From: an uncultured Kiloniellaceae bacterium
GTDB lineage: Bacteria; Pseudomonadota; Alphaproteobacteria; Kiloniellales; Kiloniellaceae
DNA: 64,000 nt
Direction: 5' to 3'
Assembly (NCBI GenBank): GCA_947493695.1
Contig: CANLSF010000002.1
Coordinates: 248,001 to 312,000 of the forward strand
The notes beneath the pieces are model-generated. The model was not told the DNA's origin, did no database searches, and saw only the letters and a program-made list of their open reading frames with translations. The position numbers and the translations under genes were made by a program. This document shows positions 992 to 23,128 of this stretch, one piece after another (the first letter of the stretch is position 1; each line of letters starts with the position of its first letter).

Positions 992-1510
992 TCAGTTGAT
1001 CTTGAACACGCCGCGGCGGTTCTGAGCCCAAGCTTCCTGGTTCGAACCAAGAACAGCAGGCTGCTCTTTGCCGAAGCTTACGGTCTGCAGGCGGTTCGGG
1101 TTCACACCAAGCGCAGCAAGGTAATCGCTTACCGAGTTCGCGCGGCGCTCACCGAGAGCCAGGTTATACTCACGTGTCCCGCGCTCGTCGGCATGACCTT
1201 CAACAGTCACGGTTGCGACAGGATAACTGTTCATCCAGACAGCGACCTTCTCGAGCACTTCACGGCTATCTGCCGTCAGGTCACTCTTGTCTGTGTCGAA
1301 GAACACACGGTCCCCAACGTTCACGGTCAGATGCTCCTGGGTTCCAGGAGTTGGACCTTCAATGGCACTTGTCTGGGTAGATCCAGCAGAGCTATCTGTT
1401 GTCGGAGCAGCGGCTCCACTACCTGTACCACTGTTGGAAGTTTCAGGATCGCTTGCACAAGCACCCAGCAGCGATGCTGCCGCAATGAGAGTGAGGAACT
1501 TTAAACGCAT
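992..1510 (-). CDS. pal: Peptidoglycan-associated lipoprotein Pal
   Basis: 172 residues. The N-terminus is a lipoprotein signal with lipobox LLGAC, so Cys18 would be lipidated and the protein anchored in the outer membrane. A Ser/Thr/Gly-rich tether follows to about residue 65. The rest is an OmpA/Pal peptidoglycan-binding domain, with VEGHADERGTREYNLALG and the downstream RRANSV segment typical of Pal. It binds peptidoglycan and the TolB propeller and, driven by TolQRA, is concentrated at the division site. The start has a GAGAGG ribosome site 7 nt upstream. It follows tolB after 145 bp, and an intrinsic terminator lies downstream. Confidence 0.97.
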   Translation of the reverse strand: MRLKFLTLIAAASLLGACASDPETSNSGTGSGAAAPTTDSSAGSTQTSAIEGPTPGTQEHLTVNVGDRVFFDTDKSDLTADSREVLEKVAVWMNSYPVATVTVEGHADERGTREYNLALGERRANSVSDYLAALGVNPNRLQTVSFGKEQPAVLGSNQEAWAQNRRGVFKIN

Positions 1511-1655
1511 ATTGTGCCCTCTCGAGACATCCCCGGAATCCTAATGAACAAGGTCAGGCCTGCTACCGGTCTTCATTGAGGCCCCCTTGGAAAGAATACA
1601 TCCCCCATCACCGGTTAACTACCGGTAAAGTTCCACGTAATATACCGGCCACAAC

Positions 1656-3011
1656 CTATTGAATCAAGGGGGACCACGCTGGGTCGGAACCGTCAATCGG
1701 TGTCGCAACTTCGCGTTCGTTAAAACCGGTAAGATCGATTGTAAAGAGTTTGGTAACCTGTTTACCCCGCGCGTCCGCTGGCATCTGACGATAGAACGAT
1801 AACACACGACCGTTGGGCGCCCAAGTCGGCCCCTCTACCAGGAAGCCTTCGGCAAGCATTCGTTCACCACTTCCGTCAGGCCGCATGACTCCTATGTAAA
1901 AAGTCCCGCCGCTCATACGTGTGAAGGCAATCAGGTCACCGCGCGGCGACCAGACCGGTGTCGCATAGCGTCCCTTATTAAAGGAAATCCGCTGCACACC
2001 GGAACCATCCGCGTTCATCACATAGAGCTGCTGCGAGCCGCCACGGTCGGAATTGAAAACAACTTGTCTCGAATCCGGCGAATAAGACGGCGAGGTATCG
2101 ATGGCCGGATGCCGTGTTAAACGTGTGACCTGCCGGGTTCTGAGGTCCATCGTGTAGATTTCAGTGTTTCCCTGCTGCGCCAGAGACATCACAACTGTGT
2201 TGCCGTCAGGCGAAAAGCGTGGCGCGAATGTCATGCCCGGGAAGTCACCCAGGACCTCCTGCTGTCCCGTATTCAGATTGAGCAGATATACGCGCGGCAC
2301 CCGGTTCACATAGGCGAGATAGGTAATCTCCTGCAGCGAAGGTGAGAAGCGCGGCGTCAGAACCAGGTTGCTGCCGTCGGTCAGGAACTGATGATTGAAA
2401 CCATCCTGATCCATGATTGCCAAACGCTTCTGACGGCGATTCTGCGGACCGCTCTCTGCGATATAAACGATCCTGGAATCGAAGTAGCCTTCTTCACCGG
2501 TCAGGCGCTTATAAACATTGTCGGCAATGATGTGCGCAACCCGGCGCCAGATTGACGGCGGCACGGTGTAGGCGAATGCCGTGAGCTGTCCTTCGCCGAA
2601 CACATCCCAAAGCCGGAATTCCACGCGCAGACGTCCGTCGGCCTGCAGTTCAGCCGACCCGCTTACCAAAGCCTGCGCATTGATCACCCGCCAGTCGCCA
2701 AAGCGCGGAACATTTCTCAGCGCCGCCGGGTCCTGGATGAAGGCCCCTTTATCGATGGGCCGGAACAAACCGGAGCGTTCCAGATCCGCGGCAATCACTT
2801 CTGCTACGTCATGACCGATCAGCTGTTCTTCCGGCGTCGCACCGTAGAAATCAGAAACCGCGATGGGCAGAGGTTCCACAAAGCCCTGGGTAATATCGAC
2901 GTTCAACTGCGCCCGGGCAGGCTGCACCTGTGCCATCGTTACAGCAGTAATCGTGGAAATGATCGCCAGGAGGGCGAACAGGCGGGTCGAGGTAAGTCGG
3001 TTCTTCATCAT
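1656..3011 (-). CDS. tolB: Tol-Pal system protein TolB
   Basis: 451 residues. Sec signal peptide with predicted cleavage after ARA (about residue 34). The N-terminal alpha/beta domain spans about 35-165 and contains the conserved ADLERSGLF segment. The C-terminal part is a six-bladed beta-propeller with repeated blade motifs such as [37 protein letters not shown] and PVWSPRGD. TolB is the periplasmic hub that binds Pal and receives the TolA signal. Its ATG overlaps the tolA stop by 4 bp (ATGA), so the two are probably translationally coupled. Length matches alphaproteobacterial TolB. Confidence 0.97.
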
Positions 3012-3979
3012 GTCCCAAACATCTCTCTTGGATCGAACTTAAGATTGATCACACGCCAGACTTCATACTCGCTCACAGGCAACTTGTAAGGGCTGCAAGC
3101 TTGTATAGCACGTCGCGCGTTTTCCGCAGCGCTTCTGAAGTACGCATCGCCAAACATTCTCGTGAGGTTGACGACTTCGGCCGAAACCAGCGTACCGTCG
3201 CGCCGCAGTGTGATGCGAATTTCGACAACTAGATCTTCCGCCTGCTGCGCGCCCGGATCCAATCGCCAGCAACGTTGAATCTGCTGACGGATGGCACGGG
3301 CAATACCCTCTTGAGCAATACGGCTGACCTGCTGCTTTGGTCTTGTCTGTTCGGCCACCTTCGGCGCAGTCGCAGTCTGTGCCTTTTGCGCAGGCTGCTT
3401 CTTCAGCTTCTCCACATTGCGCAGGATCGAAGTCAAGGCATCCGCGGGCGGCTCCTCGGGCTTTTCTTCTTTTGGCGTTTCTTGTTCGGCGAGCTTGATT
3501 TTCGGCTTTGGCCGTGGCTTGGGCGCGATCGGCTTTGCCTCTTCTTCAGGCTCCGGGGTTGGTTCCGGTTCGGGCTCGGGCTCGGGCTCGGGCTCAGGTT
3601 CCGGTTCCGGCTCCGGAGTTGGCTCAGGTTCGGGTTCCGGCTCTGGCTCTGGCTCAGGTTCAGGCTCGGGTTCCGGCTCTGGTTCGGGCTCAGGCTCCGG
3701 AGTCGGTTCGGGTTCAGGTGCAGGCGCGGGCTTTGGATCAGGCGGTGGCGGCGTCTCTTCCTTCTCAGGCTCGGGCTCTGGAGCCTCTTCCTTGGCGACC
3801 GGCTCAGGCTCTGGGTCTGGCTGCTTCTCTGTCGCCGCTTCCAACTCGGCAAGTGTGACCAATTCAACCGGTACATTCGTAATCGGCGGCAGGGGACTCA
3901 CAAAGGTCGGCAGCCCTACAGCCAACGCGGCAATGACCACCGCGTGAAATAGGATCGAAAAGATGGTCCCGTTGCGCAT
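3008..3979 (-). CDS. tolA: Tol-Pal system protein TolA with long Glu-Pro rod
   Basis: 323 residues. A single N-terminal membrane anchor (about residues 5-26, [20 protein letters not shown]) would contact TolQR. A periplasm-spanning linker follows, dominated by an almost uninterrupted Glu-Pro dipeptide tract (roughly residues 85-147) broken by Thr-Pro units, then a Lys/Pro/Glu segment. The C-terminal domain (about 218-323) is TonB/TolA-like and has two Cys (in RCWRLDP and ACSPYKLP). TolA transmits proton-motive energy from TolQR to TolB/Pal. The rod differs from the Ala/Lys/Glu helix of enterobacterial TolA. It lies between tolR (17-bp gap) and tolB (4-bp overlap). Confidence 0.93.
3541..3724 (-). 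repeat. Hexanucleotide-type repeat encoding the TolA Glu-Pro rod
   Basis: A run of 6-bp units, read on the plus strand as GGTTCC, GGCTCG, GGCTCA and GGCTCT variants, occasionally broken by GGAGTT. Third positions vary, so it is a degenerate repeat kept in frame, not a recent perfect microsatellite. Unequal exchange in it would change rod length by whole dipeptides. Confidence 0.85.
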
Positions 3980-3996
3980 ACTCGCTCGTAACGCTC

Positions 3997-4491
3997 CTAG
4001 CGGCTTTCCGAATCTTCGGACGTTTCGCCCGCTGCATCAGCAGGCGCGGTTCCGCTCGGCAATTCCGCAATCAATGCAACACGCGTGAAGCCCGCCGCAT
4101 TGACCGTCGCCATGACCTCCATCACCCGGCCATAATCGATGCTGCGATCACCACGGACGAAGATACGCGTATCGGGCTTGTTTTCCGTAATCGCAATCAG
4201 GCGCGGTACCAGCTTGCCGATTTCGACTTCGGTGTCCTGAACATAGAGCAGGCCTTTCGCGTTGACGGAAACCACCAGCGGCTCATCCGGATCGGATAGC
4301 GTCTGCGCCTTGGCTTTGGGCAGATCGACCGGTACGCCAACAGTGAGCAACGGTGCCGTCACCATGAAGACGATCAGCAGAACCAGCATCACGTCGACAA
4401 AAGGCGTCACGTTAATATCGCTCAGGGGTTGGTATCTGCGCGACCTCCAGCCCTTACCCGCACGGCCGGAGCTCTGAAACTGCCCGGCCAT
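3997..4491 (-). CDS. tolR: Tol-Pal system protein TolR (ExbD family)
   Basis: 164 residues. Short cytoplasmic N-terminus, then the family signature [24 protein letters not shown]: a transmembrane helix at about 27-48 with the conserved Asp (VDVML) used for proton conduction. The periplasmic ExbD/TolR domain follows, with PVDLPKA and [15 protein letters not shown]. It forms the TolQ-TolR ion channel that energises TolA. The start lies 2 bp after the tolQ stop. An Asp/Glu/Ser-rich tail closes the protein. Confidence 0.96.
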
Positions 4492-4493
4492 GG

Positions 4494-5252
4494 TTAGGGT
4501 TTCTCCTCAAGCTGCCGCGACAGAATGGCACCGAACTCACCGGCAAAGGCCTCAAGACGGCCACCGTAGCGACCCAGATCTGTCGAGATCTTGTTGTAGG
4601 CAATAACCGCAGGAATGGCAGCAACCAGTCCCAGAGCCGTTGCGAAGAGAGCCTCGGCAATACCCGGTGCAACAACCGCAAGACTGGTGTTCTTGGACGC
4701 GGCAATTGAGGTAAAGGCATTCATAATGCCCCAGACCGTTCCAAACAGACCGATGAAGGGGGCCGAAGCGCCGACGGAGGCCAGGAAAATCATGTGGCGC
4801 TCCAGGCGTTCCATCTCGCGTCCCAGCGAGATATCCATAACCCGGTCTATTCGCTGCTGCAGGCTGATGCGATTCTGATCGCTCACCCCACCAAGCCCCT
4901 TGGAGCTTGAGCGGCGCCATTCGCGCATAGCCGAGACAAAGAGCGAAGACATAGGGTCCGGTGGCCGTTTGTCGATCCGGTCATAGAGATCGTCGAGAGA
5001 TCCCCCCGACCAGAAGGCTTCTTCGAACTGCTCGGCCAAACTGCGTAATCGGCGAATCTTTAAAATCTTTTCGAAGATGATCGCCCAGGACCAGACCGAG
5101 GCCACCAGCAGCAGGACCATCACGATCTTAACAACAATGTCGGCCTGCAGAAACAAGCCCCATACAGTCAAATCATGCGCGACGGACCCGGCCAATCCAA
5201 CCGTTTCCACTGCTGTTTCGACCGCTGTTTCGACTGCTTCATTTGCCATCAA
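4494..5252 (-). CDS. tolQ: Tol-Pal system protein TolQ (MotA/TolQ/ExbB channel)
   Basis: 252 residues. Three membrane helices: about 39-60, about 150-175 (SVGASAPFIGLFGTVWGIMNAF, the family signature) and about 190-215. With TolR it makes the inner-membrane proton channel of the Tol system. The N-terminus carries three tandem AVET units (residues about 6-17), a small repeat also visible in the DNA. The start codon overlaps the ybgC stop by 4 bp; tolR begins 2 bp after its stop. Confidence 0.96.
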   Translation of the reverse strand: MMANEAVETAVETAVETVGLAGSVAHDLTVWGLFLQADIVVKIVMVLLLVASVWSWAIIFEKILKIRRLRSLAEQFEEAFWSGGSLDDLYDRIDKRPPDPMSSLFVSAMREWRRSSSKGLGGVSDQNRISLQQRIDRVMDISLGREMERLERHMIFLASVGASAPFIGLFGTVWGIMNAFTSIAASKNTSLAVVAPGIAEALFATALGLVAAIPAVIAYNKISTDLGRYGGRLEAFAGEFGAILSRQLEEKP

Positions 5253-16917: not shown

Positions 16918-17484
16918 ATGAAGATTAATGGCAACGCCATTCGCCCCGGAAACGTCATTGAGCACAAAAATCGTCTCTGGCGCGCAACCAAAATCCAGCA
17001 TACGCAACCCGGCAAAGGCGGCGCATATCTGCAGGTCGAGCTGAAAGATATCCGTGACGGCACCAAACTGAACGAGCGCTTTCGCGCCAGTGAGGATGTC
17101 GACCGGGTACGCCTGGATCAAAAGGACTACCAGTTCCTGTTTGCCGACGGTGAGATGCTGACCTTCATGGACAATGAGACCTACGAGCAGGTGATGCTGC
17201 ACAGCGATCTGGTCGGGGAGCCCGTCGTATTCCTGCAGGACGGTATGACGGTGACAATCGAATCCTACGAAGGTGAGTCGATCTCGGTCATGCTGCCGGA
17301 CACAGTTGTCGCCGAGATAGCTGAAGCCGACCCCGTGGTGAAGGGCCAGACCGCGTCTTCCTCCTACAAGCCGGCCAAGCTGGACAACGGAGTCAAGATC
17401 ATGGTTCCGCCGCACATCGAATCAGGCACTCGCGTGGTCGTGAACACAGCGGACTCCAGTTATGTGGAACGCGCCAAGGGCTAA
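16918..17484 (+). CDS. efp: Translation elongation factor P
   Basis: 188 residues, the usual EF-P length. Three beta domains: KOW-like domain I ([19 protein letters not shown]), OB domain II ([16 protein letters not shown]) and OB domain III ([34 protein letters not shown]). The tip loop has PGKGGA with Lys33, the residue that is beta-lysylated in EpmA-type species. EF-P rescues ribosomes stalled at polyproline, which is relevant for a cell that encodes the long Glu-Pro and Ala-Pro-Lys rods seen in this window. GGACGGACGATC precedes the start. Confidence 0.97.
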
Positions 17485-17547: not shown

Positions 17548-18351
17548 ATGGCCACTCGCTCACCTCTGATCACCGTTATGACCCGCGCGGCCATCAAAGC
17601 CTCGCGGGGACTGAAACGCGATTTCGGAGAGGTCGAAAATCTGCAGGTCTCCCGAAAAGGCCCTGCCGACTTCGTTTCAACAGCCGACCTCAAGGCCGAT
17701 AAGACACTGCGCGAGGAACTGGGCAACGCACGGCCTGGATATGGTTTCCTGACGGAAGAATCGGCAGAGACCAAGGGCACAGACGAACACGACCGCCGCT
17801 GGATTGTTGATCCGCTCGACGGCACGACAAATTTTCTGCACGGCCTCCCCCACTTCGCGGTCTCCATTGCGCTGGAAGAACGCGGCGAGATCGTTGCAGC
17901 AGTGGTTTACGACCCGATCAAGGATGAAATGTTCACCGCTGAAAAAGGCGCAGGTGCGTTCTTGAACGACCGGCGCATCCGGGTTTCCGGTCGCACGGCC
18001 ATGAACAGTGCCTTGATCGGCACCGGTGCGCCTTTCCTGGGACATGGCGATCGCCCGGTGTTCCTGAAGGAACTGGACGCAGTGACGGCCGTAACCGCTG
18101 GCATCCGCCGCATGGGTGCTGCAGCCCTCGATCTCGCCTATGTCGCCGCCGGACGCTTCGATGGTTTTTGGGAGCGCGGGCTTTCTCCCTGGGATATCGC
18201 AGCAGGTGTTTTGCTGGTTCGCGAATCCGGTGGACAGGTCAGCACGATTAAAGGCACTGCCTTCAAACTCGAAGGCGACAGCATCCTGGCCGCGAACCTC
18301 GAACTGCATCCTTCGCTGGTCAAGACCCTGCGCTCTGCACGGGACGCTTGA
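17548..18351 (+). CDS. suhB: Inositol monophosphatase family protein (SuhB type)
   Basis: 267 residues. Metal-dependent phosphatase of the FIG superfamily. Metal-binding motifs: EES in FLTEESAE, WIVDPLDGTTNFLHGLP, and the distal WERGLSPWDIAAGVLLVRESGG. Dephosphorylates inositol-1-phosphate; in several bacteria SuhB also binds NusG/RNA polymerase during rRNA synthesis. 63 bp downstream of efp on the same strand. Which role dominates here cannot be read from sequence. Confidence 0.93.
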   Translation: MATRSPLITVMTRAAIKASRGLKRDFGEVENLQVSRKGPADFVSTADLKADKTLREELGNARPGYGFLTEESAETKGTDEHDRRWIVDPLDGTTNFLHGLPHFAVSIALEERGEIVAAVVYDPIKDEMFTAEKGAGAFLNDRRIRVSGRTAMNSALIGTGAPFLGHGDRPVFLKELDAVTAVTAGIRRMGAAALDLAYVAAGRFDGFWERGLSPWDIAAGVLLVRESGGQVSTIKGTAFKLEGDSILAANLELHPSLVKTLRSARDA

Positions 18352-18597: not shown

Positions 18598-20088
18598 ATG
18601 ACACGACAAACGTACCGAACCGGAAATGTGACGACACCGTCTTCGATGAAGGCGAGCGGCGCACTGTCCGGATCGAAATTCCTACATGCTGCACATCGGC
18701 ATGGGATAGCCCCTTACTTCGGTTGCCTTTGCATTGCAGCTCTTCTTTCATCAGCAAGCGTTCCCGCTTTGGCGCAATCCGCACTATTGGGTGCCGATTC
18801 GGGCGTCTTCGTAAATGAAGCCTTGCTCGATGGAATGAACCAGCAGACCGTTCCGGTTCTGCCTTACGGCGCGCAAGGTGCTTATCAGGGTGGCGCCTAT
18901 CAGGCACAACCCAGTTACGGTGCCGGCGGATATAATTCTGGTGCTGGCGGTTCCGGCACGGTCATCATAGGCGGCTCCGGCGATGCGACTGTCCAGGGCG
19001 GCCAGCAGTATGTAACCCGCCCAGGCACACTACTCTTCCCGCCACCGACGTTTCCCAGAAGCCGCGTAACCATCATCGATTCGGGAACGGCGACTGCGAG
19101 CAGAAACGCCAACGCGTCGAATAGAGTTGCCGGGCAAGGCAATCTTGCGGGCACTGCAACGCAAGCCACTTCAAGTCTGGTTCCACCAGCCGCAAATTCA
19201 GGAGCCACGGGCGGAAAGGCCGAGTCTCGCCTTCTCGTTCCCCTCCCACCCAGCATTTCGCAGCAGGCACCAGCCACCAAGACCGCCACAAGCAAGCCGG
19301 CTAAACCCGCAGTGACGGCCGCCAAGAAAGCGCCACCGCCACCCAAAAAGGTCGCACAGGCAAAAGCGCCGCAGCCGCCGAAAAAATCGGCGCCAGTGCC
19401 AGCAGCCCCGGCAAAGCAGGCCTCCGTTGCCCCACCGGCACCACCTGTGAAGACGGTACCTGCTGCACCTAAAGTCGCTGCGGCTCCGCCACCACCAAAA
19501 CTCGCGCCAAAATCGGCGCCGGCGACGGCCGCCCCCACGGCTATCGCACCGAAAACCGCGACCGTGGCTAAAGCGGCGCAGTTGGAGGATACCACTGCCG
19601 CCCTTACGCCGCCTCCTCCGCCGCCTGTAAGTCCATCGGTCGACACGGCTAAGCAAGCCCCTGCGGCGCCGGCGCAGCAACCTGCCGCACCGGCAGCGCC
19701 GACACCCCAAGCGAACGATGCCGCACCACCCGCGCCTTCAACTCAAACGGCATCGCGTGGCGATCCGGCAGTTCAGGTCAGCGAAGTGCAGGTCCTGTTC
19801 AATTCCAGCGAGGCAGGATTGAGCGGCCCAGCAAAAACATCACTCGAATCCGTGGCACAGGCCATGCTGGAGGATGATACCAGCATCGTTCAGCTCTTTG
19901 CCTACGCCGGACAAGAGAACATTGACGCGACCCAGGCACGGCGTTTGTCTCTGTCACGAGCCATGGCTGTGCGGGCTTTTCTGATCGGCAAGGGTGTGCG
20001 CCCTGCCCGCATGCAGGTCCGGGCACTGGGCAACAAAACAACCAGCGGATCCCCTGATCGTGTGGATGTTGTTCCCGCCAAACGCTAA
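18598..20088 (+). CDS. Secreted Pro/Ala/Lys-rich protein with C-terminal OmpA domain
   Basis: 496 residues. The start has GGGGAACGA upstream. The N-terminus is long before a signal peptide core (FGCLCIAALLSSASVPALAQS, cleavage near residue 59), so a later start (ATG 18646) is possible. A Gly/Tyr/Gln-rich stretch (about 80-140) is followed by about 180 residues of Ala-Pro-Lys-Thr linker with poly-Pro runs, like a periplasm-spanning rod. The last about 105 residues resemble an OmpA domain (VQVLFNSSEAGLS, LFAYAGQENIDATQARRLSLSRAMAVRAFL, RALGNK), but the usual peptidoglycan-contact Asp in the HADxxG-type loop is replaced by AGQEN. It precedes a MotA/ExbB-like and a MotB-like gene, with which it may work. 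Confidence 0.75.
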   Translation: MTRQTYRTGNVTTPSSMKASGALSGSKFLHAAHRHGIAPYFGCLCIAALLSSASVPALAQSALLGADSGVFVNEALLDGMNQQTVPVLPYGAQGAYQGGAYQAQPSYGAGGYNSGAGGSGTVIIGGSGDATVQGGQQYVTRPGTLLFPPPTFPRSRVTIIDSGTATASRNANASNRVAGQGNLAGTATQATSSLVPPAANSGATGGKAESRLLVPLPPSISQQAPATKTATSKPAKPAVTAAKKAPPPPKKVAQAKAPQPPKKSAPVPAAPAKQASVAPPAPPVKTVPAAPKVAAAPPPPKLAPKSAPATAAPTAIAPKTATVAKAAQLEDTTAALTPPPPPPVSPSVDTAKQAPAAPAQQPAAPAAPTPQANDAAPPAPSTQTASRGDPAVQVSEVQVLFNSSEAGLSGPAKTSLESVAQAMLEDDTSIVQLFAYAGQENIDATQARRLSLSRAMAVRAFLIGKGVRPARMQVRALGNKTTSGSPDRVDVVPAKR

Positions 20089-20172
20089 TGCCTGTAACGT
20101 TGACTGAACCTCTCGGTTGGGCTAAACGCGGAAGAGGTTAATTGCAGTCGGCTTCGGCTGCAGCCGTAAGTC

Positions 20173-20224
20173 TAGAGACTGATCGATTTTCATTCATTCG
20201 CCGAAAACCGTGAATCAGTCTCTA
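20173..20224. promoter_or_regulatory. Long hairpin element between the OmpA-domain gene and the stator-like pair
   Basis: TAGAGACTGAT (20173-20183) and ATCAGTCTCTA (20214-20224) are exact inverse complements. Inside, TTTTC and GAAAA can extend a second stem. No T tract follows, so it is not a typical terminator. It could be an RNA processing site, a rho-independent pause, an operator, or a dispersed palindromic repeat. Confidence 0.5.
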
Positions 20225-20311
20225 AAACATGAAGTTAGAGAGCGTTCTGCATTCTTGGCTGTTTCGGTCGAGATCAAGCGCACTCTAAGCCGCGGGGCAG
20301 CGTAGCGTACA

Positions 20312-21475
20312 ATGAACCGGCCAAAGCGTTACTTGATCCATATGAGCATTTTTCTGGTGCTCGTCGGACTGGCGGTCTTCGCCCTCTCGGATAAAATTAT
20401 CGATGCCTTTCAAGCGAATGAGCTCTTTAACGGTCTCATCCTTTTTGTGCTGGTTCTCGGTGTCGTCTATATCTTCCTGCAGGTCTGGCGCCTGAATCCA
20501 GAAATCGCATGGCTTGACAACCTGAGACGCGAAAGCAAGGGCGGCCTGGTCTTTCCCGGCACGTTGTCTGAAGAGCGCCCGCCGCGCCTCCTGGGTCCCA
20601 TGGCCAATATGCTCGGCGACCGTGCAGGCAGACTTTCTCTTTCGACCCTTTCCATGCGCACACTCCTGGACGGCATTCACAGCCGCATCGAGGAATCGCA
20701 TGAACTCTCGCGTTACCTGATCGGACTGCTGATCTTTCTTGGGCTCTTGGGCACCTTCTGGGGCCTGCTTGAGACGGTCACCGCAGTTGCCGACACCATT
20801 GGCGGCCTGAATGGCGCAATCGACGATCCGGCTTCCCTGTTCGAAGAACTGAAAAGCGGTCTCGCCACACCGCTTGCGGGCATGGGCACAGCCTTCAGTT
20901 CCTCGCTCTTCGGCCTTGCCGGTTCCCTGATCCTCGGCTTTCTGGAGCTTCAGGCAGGTCAAGCGCACAATCGCTTTCTCAACGAACTGGAAGAATGGCT
21001 TTCAGGCGTTACCAAGTTGTCCTCCGGAAGTGTCACTGGAGATGGTGATCAGTCAGTTCCTGCTTACATCCAGGCGCTGCTTGAGAAAACAGCCGACAGC
21101 CTCGACCAACTGCAAAGAACTATTTCGCGTGGCGAGGAAGACCGTTCCTCCATGACACAGGGACTGGCAGGCCTAACCGACCGCCTCTCGACGCTGACCG
21201 ACCAGATGCGCACCGAACAAAGCGTATTGATGAAGATGGCGGAGAATCAGGCTCAGTTGAAGCAGGTCATGACAAAACTTGCCGAAGGAGATACCGGGTC
21301 TGCGCCCGCAGGCCTGGACGAAGCCTCCCGCACACATCTGCGGAATGTCGACCTGCGCCTCGAGCGTATCGCCAGCGACCTTTCAAGCGGGCGTGAGAAT
21401 GCCATTCAAGAGATTCGCGGAGAGATCCGCCTCCTGACCCGCACCATCGCTGCGATCGCCGAGGAAAGCGAGTAA
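20312..21475 (+). CDS. MotA/TolQ/ExbB-type proton channel protein with C-terminal coiled coil
   Basis: 387 residues. Four membrane segments: about 9-27, about 40-58, about 133-156 (RYLIGLLIFLGLLGTFWGLLETV, the MotA/TolQ core helix) and about 185-212 (PLAGMGTAFSSSLFGLAGSLILGF, the second core helix). Between the first and second pairs is a cytoplasmic loop of about 70 residues; after the last helix comes a tail of about 170 residues rich in heptads (DSLDQLQRTISRGEEDRSSM, LTDRLSTLTDQMRTEQSVLMKMAENQAQL). Four-helix topology is MotA-like and unlike three-helix TolQ. The next gene, 12 bp on, encodes a MotB-like partner. Inference: a five-subunit ion channel of a non-flagellar stator. Related pairs are common and poorly characterised in alphaproteobacteria. 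Confidence 0.85.
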   Translation: MNRPKRYLIHMSIFLVLVGLAVFALSDKIIDAFQANELFNGLILFVLVLGVVYIFLQVWRLNPEIAWLDNLRRESKGGLVFPGTLSEERPPRLLGPMANMLGDRAGRLSLSTLSMRTLLDGIHSRIEESHELSRYLIGLLIFLGLLGTFWGLLETVTAVADTIGGLNGAIDDPASLFEELKSGLATPLAGMGTAFSSSLFGLAGSLILGFLELQAGQAHNRFLNELEEWLSGVTKLSSGSVTGDGDQSVPAYIQALLEKTADSLDQLQRTISRGEEDRSSMTQGLAGLTDRLSTLTDQMRTEQSVLMKMAENQAQLKQVMTKLAEGDTGSAPAGLDEASRTHLRNVDLRLERIASDLSSGRENAIQEIRGEIRLLTRTIAAIAEESE

Positions 21476-21487
21476 GGACCCCTATAG

Positions 21488-23128
21488 ATGTATTCCATGG
21501 GCCGAGGCGGCACACGACGATCGGTAAATATCTGGCCGGGATTCGTCGATGGCCTGGCCAGCCTTCTGCTGGTCGTGATCTTCGTGCTGATGGTCTTCAT
21601 GGTCGCGCAGTTCTTCCTGAGCGTTGCGCTCAGTGGACGGGACGCCGCTCTGGTGAAGCTGGAGCGGGAGGTAAGCCAGCTCGCCGACCTGCTATCTCTT
21701 GAAAGACAGGAGAACGCGGATCTGCGGACCCAATCTTCGGACCTCTCGGCGCAACTCAGCTCGTCTCTAGCCGCGCGCGACACACTCCAAAACCAGCTCT
21801 CCTCATTGAACGATGAACGCGACGGTTTAACCTCTCAGCTCGAAGAGTCGGTCTCACGTCGCGATACCCTCGAGAATCAACTTGCCGACCTCACCCGTCA
21901 ATATGACGAGGCACAGGTGCAGCAGGACTCGCTGAACAATCAGCTCGCCGCCATCATCGAAGAGCGCGACAGCCTGACGTCAGCTGTCTCCGAGCGGGAA
22001 GCCGAAAAAGCCGTGCTGCTGAAAGAGAAAGACGATCTGGCACAACGCCTCGGTTTAAGCGAAGCGGAAATCGCGAAAAACGCCGAGGACTTGAAAACCG
22101 CCTACAGCACCATCGAGGCCGACAAGGAAAAGATCGAGGCCCAGCTTGCTGAGCTGGCCGCCCTCCAGAAACTCCGGGAAGAAGAAGAGGCGAAAGCCGC
22201 TGCCGCCCTGGCCAGCCAGGCTGCGGAGCTCGAAGACGCCTTCAAGTCCATCGAGGCCGACAAGGAGACCATCGAGGCGCAACTCGCCGAACTGGCCTTG
22301 TTGAAACGCCTGCGGGACGAAGAAACCGCCCTGGCCAAAACTCAGCTTGAAGATGCCTACACAACCATCGAAGCCGACCGTGAAACAATTGAGACCCAGC
22401 TCGCGGAACTCGCCTTGCTGCAGCAGATGCGTGACGAGCTGACAGCCGGTCTGGCAACCGCGGACGACGCCGTCGCTGCCCAGGAGGAGCTGACAGCAAA
22501 GGCGCAGGCGGAAGTTGTTCTGCTCAACCGTCAGATTGCGGCTCTACGTCAACAGCTCGCCCGCATCGCGGTAACCCTGGAGGCAACCGAAGCCAAGAAC
22601 CTGGAGCAGGAAGTCCAGATCGCCGATCTGGGCAGCCGCCTCAATGTGGCGTTGGCAAGCAAAGTGCAGGAACTGGCGCGCTATCGCTCCGAATTCTTCG
22701 GACGGCTGCGCGAAGTTCTGGGAGATCGCCGCGACGTGCGTGTTGTCGGTGACCGCTTCGTGTTCCAGTCCGAAGTCCTCTTCGCCAGCGGCGCCGCCGA
22801 ACTGGAGGACGCGGGCAAGGGACAGCTGGCGAGTCTGGCCACGACCCTGCGCGACATCTCCCGCAATATTCCGCCAGAAGTCGACTGGGTTTTGCGAGTC
22901 GATGGTCACACGGACCGGGCGCCGATCAACACCTACGCCTTCCCTTCCAACTGGGAGCTTTCAACCGCGCGCGCGATTTCCGTGGTTAAGTTCCTGAATG
23001 CGCAGGGTATCCCGGCGAACCGCCTGGCAGCCACAGGCTTCGGTGAGTTCCAGCCAATCGATGAAGGCAATGACGAGATCGCCTACCGCCGCAATCGCCG
23101 CATCGAACTCAAACTGACCCAGCGTTAA
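21488..23128 (+). CDS. MotB-like membrane protein with long coiled coil and peptidoglycan-binding OmpA domain
   Basis: 546 residues. AGGA precedes the ATG. One transmembrane helix (about 21-46) starts with IWPGFVDGLASLLLVV: Asp21 sits at the membrane entrance exactly where MotB carries its proton-binding Asp, after the conserved Trp. Residues about 50-395 are continuous coiled coil, including three near-identical repeats of about 35 residues (starting near 201, 247 and 286; each has the core IEAD-x-E-x-IE-x-QLAELA). The C-terminal OmpA domain (about 400-546) has LFASGAAEL, VDGHTDRAPI, NWELSTARA and RRNRRIEL, with the Asp and Arg that hold diaminopimelate. Longer than any MotB. It should anchor to the cell wall and gate the upstream MotA-like channel. 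Confidence 0.87.
   Translation: MYSMGRGGTRRSVNIWPGFVDGLASLLLVVIFVLMVFMVAQFFLSVALSGRDAALVKLEREVSQLADLLSLERQENADLRTQSSDLSAQLSSSLAARDTLQNQLSSLNDERDGLTSQLEESVSRRDTLENQLADLTRQYDEAQVQQDSLNNQLAAIIEERDSLTSAVSEREAEKAVLLKEKDDLAQRLGLSEAEIAKNAEDLKTAYSTIEADKEKIEAQLAELAALQKLREEEEAKAAAALASQAAELEDAFKSIEADKETIEAQLAELALLKRLRDEETALAKTQLEDAYTTIEADRETIETQLAELALLQQMRDELTAGLATADDAVAAQEELTAKAQAEVVLLNRQIAALRQQLARIAVTLEATEAKNLEQEVQIADLGSRLNVALASKVQELARYRSEFFGRLREVLGDRRDVRVVGDRFVFQSEVLFASGAAELEDAGKGQLASLATTLRDISRNIPPEVDWVLRVDGHTDRAPINTYAFPSNWELSTARAISVVKFLNAQGIPANRLAATGFGEFQPIDEGNDEIAYRRNRRIELKLTQR

Follow-up and report, generated by a model that had tools for sequence, protein, structure and literature searches.

The 64,000-nucleotide stretch of DNA analyzed here (hereafter the window; positions 248,001 to 312,000 of contig CANLSF010000002.1, assembly GCA_947493695.1) stems from an uncultured Kiloniellaceae bacterium of the Alphaproteobacteria and encodes, between positions 18,598 and 23,128, a membrane protein of the MotA/ZorA type (A) and its MotB/ZorB-type partner (B), preceded by a secreted, proline-rich rod. 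Together, A and B probably form a wall-anchored, non-flagellar ion motor of 5:2 stoichiometry with a role in the cell envelope. The putative motor is kept in most of the sampled genomes of the class, even in some of 0.7-1.1 Mb that lack a flagellin match. If the assignment is true, the pair would add a housekeeping member to a motor branch known from phage defence; it bears on where Zorya came from and raises the question of a second envelope motor, in addition to Tol-Pal, in the Alphaproteobacteria. An earlier, sequence-only reading of this DNA had called the system uncharacterized, which stands in so far as we found no functional study of A-B in the open-access literature (most subscription journals and supplements being outside reach), and does not stand for B, which is already catalogued as NCBIfam family PRK09039. 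A member of the MotA/TolQ/ExbB family is reported to be up-regulated by FlcA in Azospirillum (PMC4264754); that protein may or may not be A.

The N-terminus of B (MYSMGRGGTRRSVNIWPGFVDG) consists of a short basic stretch, followed by Trp16-Pro-Gly-Phe-Val-Asp21 and then a membrane helix. When the window protein was aligned with B from 79 further loci, for which the WPG motif was not required, position 21 was Asp in all 79 rows having the residue, and Trp16 and Val20 were equally kept. Near the C-terminus, Pfam recognizes an OmpA domain (E 4.6e-16), whose wall-binding positions are retained as well (Asp476 in 75 of 75 and Arg495 in 75 of 76 rows having the residue). B furthermore scores 481.9 bits against the NCBIfam model PRK09039.1-2 (NF006543, 'peptidoglycan -binding protein'), well over the equivalog cut-off of 305, and the sub-models of PRK09039 (NF006542-NF006546) pass their cut-offs for B of five of six wider loci (Rhizobiales-, Rhodobacterales-, and Caulobacterales-like, a group assignment that is a guess), the B of L196 failing. 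The family record covers B alone and mentions no motor role, and A is without an NCBIfam model of its own.

In the predicted structure of B (pTM 0.40; input of the window protein and 51 of the 79 others), residues 17-412 are helical with interruptions at 174-183 and 321-330, and are followed by the strands and helices of the OmpA domain. With a rise of 0.15 nm per residue, about 365 residues in one straight helix would extend beyond 50 nm, which is longer than the periplasm usually is; the coil of B should hence bend or fold back. Among 73 complete B proteins with the motif, the span from Trp16 to the end ranges from 300 to 642 residues (median 418), and the window protein, with 531, owes its extra length to repeats beginning at residues 205, 251, and 290. 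In view of this variable span and of a model that breaks into three helices, the idea that the coil acts as a spring or provides a reach of tens of nanometres is not supported as a trait of the family.

Protein A ends 12 bp ahead of B. Across 64 A proteins (the window and 63 of the 80 named loci introduced below), Thr148 and Ser198 are invariant and Ser196 is nearly so. The chain predicted from the same set (pLDDT 79.4, pTM 0.58) has four main helices (4-24, 37-59, 112-165, and 173-238) and a helical tail (251-328 and 337-386). With this model, Foldseek placed type I ZorAB, ExbB, and TolQ first, and in a second fold comparison ranks 1-28 were all occupied by TolQ, ExbB, ZorA, MotA, or PomA chains (Z 9.7-12.4), with ZorA 8qyy at Z 11.1 (rmsd 3.2 over 189 residues). 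Motifs, model, and fold lists together give A the pore helices and presumed Thr/Ser ring of the common PF01618 superfamily fold, although Z scores of this kind are weak evidence for helical proteins. A sequence search of PDB chains with A yielded unrelated coiled coils only (E 0.05-1), and ZorA, TolQ, and MotA were not among its results. Frames, models, and Pfam thus agree with the four-helix, MotA-topology A just upstream of a MotB-like B and with the Trp16/Asp21 motif, long helical stretch, and OmpA domain of B, all of which the sequence-only reading had described. Tail-less A proteins of 252-267 residues occur beside an intact B at L188:8540-9343, L189:6736-7491, and L196:7985-8803.

Which kind of motor A belongs to was addressed by profile comparison and by phylogeny. 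In hhalign, ZorA was nearest to the A profile (probability 97.2, E 2.8e-11), ahead of a small unnamed family of the source genome (91.2), TolQ (74.3), MotA (14.3), PomA-like proteins (5.9), and ExbB-type proteins (3.5). In an unrooted tree of 70 rows, a branch with 100/98 support parts A, ZorA, and divergent A proteins from TolQ, ExbB-type, MotA, PomA-like, and small-family proteins. Profile and tree hence both place A on the Zorya branch and outside the MotA/PomA and TolQ/ExbB groupings; a flagellar, Tol, or Ton identity of the pair was accordingly rejected, in keeping with the earlier proposal of a stator-type pair with a wall anchor that belongs to none of these. The resemblance to ZorAB that the same reading had noted proved stronger than it had assumed. 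The A rows do not form one clade in the tree, in which L200 (an A) groups with ZorA at 92/89, and a single A clade is not rejected either (p-AU 0.32); from these sequences, A may be the sister of ZorA, or ZorA may have arisen within A, either order being possible. Each comparison family had between 3 and 28 rows, most of them from a single order, and the ZorA set comprised six loci that are type III-like. As for the labels, the TolQ and MotA rows exceed NCBI cut-offs, the PomA-like rows lie below them, and two ExbB-type rows only weakly match tolQ/exbB. X residues were changed to A or removed for hhalign and the tree; three rows without the trimming motif were dropped from the latter, in which the bootstrap was unsettled and long branches were flagged. 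The source genome encodes a further MotA_ExbB protein of 277 aa (L006, G000:C3:289279-289551) that has a tree branch of its own and no NCBIfam match at E 1e-15.

Of 31 genomes of the order, 30 have A (the source genome among them), with a single match each, and in the 29 others A is 57-96% identical over nearly the full length; given this conservation and the score of B over the NCBI equivalog cut-off, neither is a chance frame. At the level of the class, A was detected in 267 of 387 genomes with the single sequence as query and in 266 of 389 (a 95%-complete sample) with a profile of 64 rows. A sample of the phylum gave matches in 139 of 397 genomes, 32 of which lie outside the class; seven of these are strong (E < 1e-90; G468, G522, G532, G544, G608, G710, and G745), and of the remaining 25, 20 are weak and fall in ZorA-sized frames (698-1295 aa). 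Among the named loci, which are the best 80 of 582 relatives, 79 have B directly after A, the contig of the 80th ending 246 bases past A, and the two are adjacent in all 21 wider-class and all six outside-class loci that were hand-picked from the phylum sample. The refutation that the sequence-only reading had itself set out, loss of the Asp or of the gene pairing, was thus not encountered. Two of the named loci, L077 and L079, are identical in sequence and lie in opposite orientations on JAMFRO010000072.1, which leaves 79 distinct loci; this contig has the appearance of an inverted duplication and may be an artefact of assembly.

A is furthermore kept where no flagellin was detected. Among 22 chosen genomes (the source genome, five of the order with at most one MotA_ExbB match, and sixteen of 0.7-1.1 Mb), only G023 gave no A, which leaves 21 with it, and flagellin was detected in the source genome alone, so that 20 genomes have A and no flagellin match (flagellin alone was searched, not other flagellar parts). 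Genomes as small as 0.7-1.1 Mb keep A. Six f94 genomes of this size have only two MotA_ExbB matches each, one of them strong and TolQ-sized (frames of 241-267 aa), the other weak and A-sized (380-418 aa). Retention in shrunken genomes, the single copy, and old synteny fit a housekeeping task, and the latter two speak for vertical inheritance of the pair. A transpeptidase occurs in 389 of 389 class genomes, which hence offer no contrast for a dependence on wall synthesis.

Several observations weigh against the assignment as a conserved motor. The profile searches that had been suggested were clear for the OmpA domain of B and not for A, which matches Pfam MotA_ExbB (PF01618) with 16.5 bits (E 0.0071), under the gathering cut-off of 22.9; this cut-off is exceeded by eight A orthologues among the genomes of the order, and at E ≤ 0.01 the family is matched by 51 of the 64 A proteins. 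Against NCBIfam (E ≤ 0.001), the same 64 proteins match two ZorA models (10 and 9 members), PRK09039.1-3 (1), and PhaE (1). None of the Foldseek hits falls below E 0.001 (best 2.4e-3), and in the second fold list unrelated rows start at Z 9.5, the tool advising caution for helical proteins below about 13; the fold call for A consequently rests on the consistency of the list together with the sequence motifs. About a third of the class genomes (123 of 389) have no A match. In addition, A is less conserved than TolQ (median identity 65% vs 78% in 27 genomes, with the A tail included), which speaks against any strong claim that A is essential.

How the pair might work can be sketched largely by analogy. 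Gene order suggests that A and B are made together, and fold and relatives suggest assembly as A5B2. Conservation points to an arrangement in which Asp21 of B would face, within the membrane, a Thr/Ser ring of A (Thr148 and Ser196-198) and pass ions, much as the corresponding Asp of ZorB (D24 in type I, D21 in type II) is described to pack on a Ser/Thr ring of ZorA (PMC11890865). The OmpA domains of a B dimer, given their intact motif, would grip peptidoglycan, while the helical stretch would span the distance from membrane to wall. With B held by the wall, ion flow might then rotate the A ring around it. The output may conceivably be envelope upkeep or tension sensing in parallel to Tol-Pal, a guess that is the least certain step. 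The core of A, Asp21, and the wall-binding domain are kept, and the A tail, coil length, and rod are variable, which argues for a shared output at the membrane or in the periplasm.

Zorya resembles the pair most closely: ZorA is the nearest A subunit, B and ZorB share a membrane Asp and an OmpA-type domain, A carries a cytoplasmic helical tail, and in a motif comparison of A with ZorA, GLLGTF and AFSSS line up with GMLGTF and AFGTS. One could hence regard A-B as a Zorya-type anti-phage motor in which phage damage to the wall is sensed by B and relayed by A to an effector whose gene lies elsewhere, and apart from the kinship in profile and tree, the PADLOC models for ZorA1 (E 1.4e-13) and ZorB3 (E 2.6e-21) do match. 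The dimensions differ, however, with a tail of about 150 residues in A as compared to six ZorA frames of 700-850 aa, and a B span of 300-640 residues as compared to ZorB frames of about 220-330 aa. Zorya defence is reported to require wall binding, ion flow, and the tail, and Zorya loci to carry adjacent effectors, ZorC/ZorD or ZorE (PMC11890865), whereas A-B is vertical and syntenic. A occurs as a single copy in 30 of the 31 genomes sampled from the order, its synteny is fixed, it is retained in genomes of 0.7-1.1 Mb, and no nuclease or helicase family was found among the ten neighbours between 12231 and 27540 (Pfam, one of them without a match; the search for effectors was confined to these neighbours). 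The last point had already been made in the sequence-only reading. Membership in a Zorya system was rejected on the missing adjacent effector genes, and an anti-phage function of this type strikes us as very unlikely. An additional flagellar stator is more improbable still, to the point of being hardly credible: the plan is indeed that of MotAB and PomAB (a four-helix A, a membrane Asp and an OmpA-type domain in B, and fold matches at Z of about 9.7-10.3) and the source genome has flagellin genes, but A lies on the opposite side of the tree branch, its profile matches MotA and PomA weakly, it occurs in the 20 genomes without flagellin match, and the source genome possesses separate MotA- and PomA-like proteins. 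TolQR and ExbBD, in turn, have the same fold class as A (Z up to 12.4), yet likewise fall on the other side of the 100/98 branch. B also differs from their B subunits in its OmpA domain: a survey of MotAB relatives, which distinguishes flagellar from generic ion transporters and has no ZorAB in its tree, describes the generic (Exb/Tol-type) B subunits as having no OmpA homology (PMC12505986). Neither of these two groups, as defined in the survey, accommodates a B that is non-flagellar and has a strong OmpA domain.

SiiAB, named together with ZorAB among the 5:2 motors (PMC12204202), is another conceivable model, in which the pair would be a secretion motor aiding a type I exporter. SiiA and SiiB entered this comparison by description, not by sequence. 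Two divergent A-B pairs (L194:4083-11405 and L195:2828-7636) do adjoin genes for ABC exporters and HlyD-like frames (a name assigned from the translation) and resemble SiiAB-like motors; in L195, B precedes A, and L194 also has a gene for an outer-membrane efflux protein. The L195 pair adjoins a PilZ gene and elongation factor P as well. In the window, an ABC half-transporter gene borders B, and this gene is found in 30 of the 80 named loci, but in the window it is convergent, that is, on the opposite strand, it is often not nearby in the wider-class loci, and no HlyD or TolC-type gene adjoins the window pair, so that the cluster of HlyD, ABC exporter, and TolC seen in part at L194 and L195 is absent. 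Unlike SiiAB, the window pair has no exporter operon, and its B combines an intact OmpA motif with a long helical stretch. Overall, a secretion motor is an unlikely reading. We judge it quite unlikely, too, that A-B has lost ion conduction and serves as a passive wall tether or scaffold; the long helices and wall-binding domain of B would suffice for this task, but a tether needs neither the conserved membrane Asp nor the invariant Thr/Ser pair of A.

Returning to A-B as an envelope motor, the branch to which it belongs seems to occur in at least three settings: besides phage defence and type I secretion, there is the core pair that stands alone. A broader and more tentative interpretation, possible though in our view rather doubtful as a whole, is that most Alphaproteobacteria possess, in addition to Tol, a second, housekeeping, wall-anchored 5:2 motor of the Zorya branch, from which Zorya and the exporter-linked motors would have been recruited, and which would act on the cell wall mechanically or as a sensor in a way unmatched by the described systems.

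The rod encoded upstream of A, a secreted Pro/Ala/Lys-rich protein with an OmpA-like end (Pfam match at residues 400-481, E 1.2e-9), is present as described, and a place for it in the core machine is not supported. A hidden Markov model built from the window and 48 of the 80 named loci finds it directly before A in 62 of these 80 loci (60 with a stricter distance), and tblastn with the window rod detects it in 48 of the 80, whereas it is next to A in only one of the 21 wider-class loci (L212) and in none of the six outside the class; it was consequently rejected as a core component. By a simple rule, 48 of 60 rods have a signal peptide and four a possible lipobox. We take the Asp and Arg of the OmpA-type motif to be the wall-binding residues; in the rods, the Arg position is kept in 58 of 60, and Asp stands at the expected spacing in three of 49 (11 without the search motif being omitted), the sequence often reading AYAG, so that the pair of residues is not retained. 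By its sequence, the rod is probably a periplasmic accessory without the usual wall binding. The gene for elongation factor P, a protein that counters stalling at runs of proline (PMC4739656), lies two genes 5' of the one for this proline-rich protein; efp is also present where the rod is absent, and the proximity is thus probably mere synteny.

The coordinates of the locus are compiled in Table 1.

Table 1. Genes and functional elements of the A-B locus (window coordinates).
Feature	Position	Strand	Remarks
Elongation factor P	16918..17484	+	Pfam; context only, old synteny
Inositol-phosphatase family gene	17548..18351	+	Pfam; context only, old synteny
Secreted Pro/Ala/Lys-rich rod, degenerate OmpA-like end	18598..20088	+	496 aa; accessory in part of the class
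A, MotA/ZorA-type motor subunit	20312..21475	+	387 aa; frame, kinship, model and fold
Thr148 codon of A, presumably in the polar ring of the ion path	20753..20755	+	Invariant in 64 rows; by-eye alignment matches it to the GT of the ZorA and TolQ motifs
Ser196-Ser198 codons of A, presumably in the polar ring	20897..20905	+	Ser198 invariant, Ser196 nearly so (64 rows)
Helical C-terminal tail of A, residues 251-386	21062..21469	+	Model; absent from L188, L189, L196
B, MotB/ZorB-type subunit	21488..23128	+	546 aa; NCBI family PRK09039 / NF006543
Codon of B Asp21, presumed ion carrier	21548..21550	+	Asp in 79/79 rows having the residue
Extended helical part of B (approximately residues 45-412); three repeats begin at 205, 251, 290	21620..22723	+	Model, repeat scan
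OmpA-type peptidoglycan-binding domain of B, residues 431-537	22778..23098	+	Pfam E 4.6e-16; Asp476, Arg495 kept

On the 5' side, the locus is preceded in the window by genes for a transketolase, GAPDH, a frame without Pfam match, a thiamine-phosphate-synthase-like protein, elongation factor P, and the inositol-phosphatase family protein (Pfam names). In the 80 named loci, tblastn detected imp in 61, efp in 57, the ABC gene in 30, the thiE-like gene in 29, gap in 20, and tkt in 16, counts that are lower bounds as many loci end early. Among the 21 wider-class loci, 13 have a same-strand 5' match to imp (in L199 about 6 kb off) and 10 to efp. The neighbourhood of A-B is old synteny rather than a functional cluster. 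A scan of the locus for promoters and terminators gave nothing exceeding chance. Between rod and A lies a hairpin (20173-20224) whose inverted repeat is perfect over 11 bases and which is not followed by a T run; by eye, a lookalike can be recognized in the same-genus loci L008 and L009, and not in L010.

As had been stated from the sequence, the window also holds a complete tol locus elsewhere (minus strand, 992-5252), in which tolQ, tolR, tolB, and pal exceed NCBI cut-offs. The tolA frame (3008-3979, minus strand) was named by position and make-up and has no NCBIfam match at E 1e-15; TolA of E. coli is helical, and the protein at this position is rich in Pro-Glu repeats and in this respect resembles TonB more than the E. 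coli protein. In one further locus, a gene for an M23 peptidase, a wall hydrolase family, lies directly 3' of B on the opposite strand (L208:10389-11357, minus strand).

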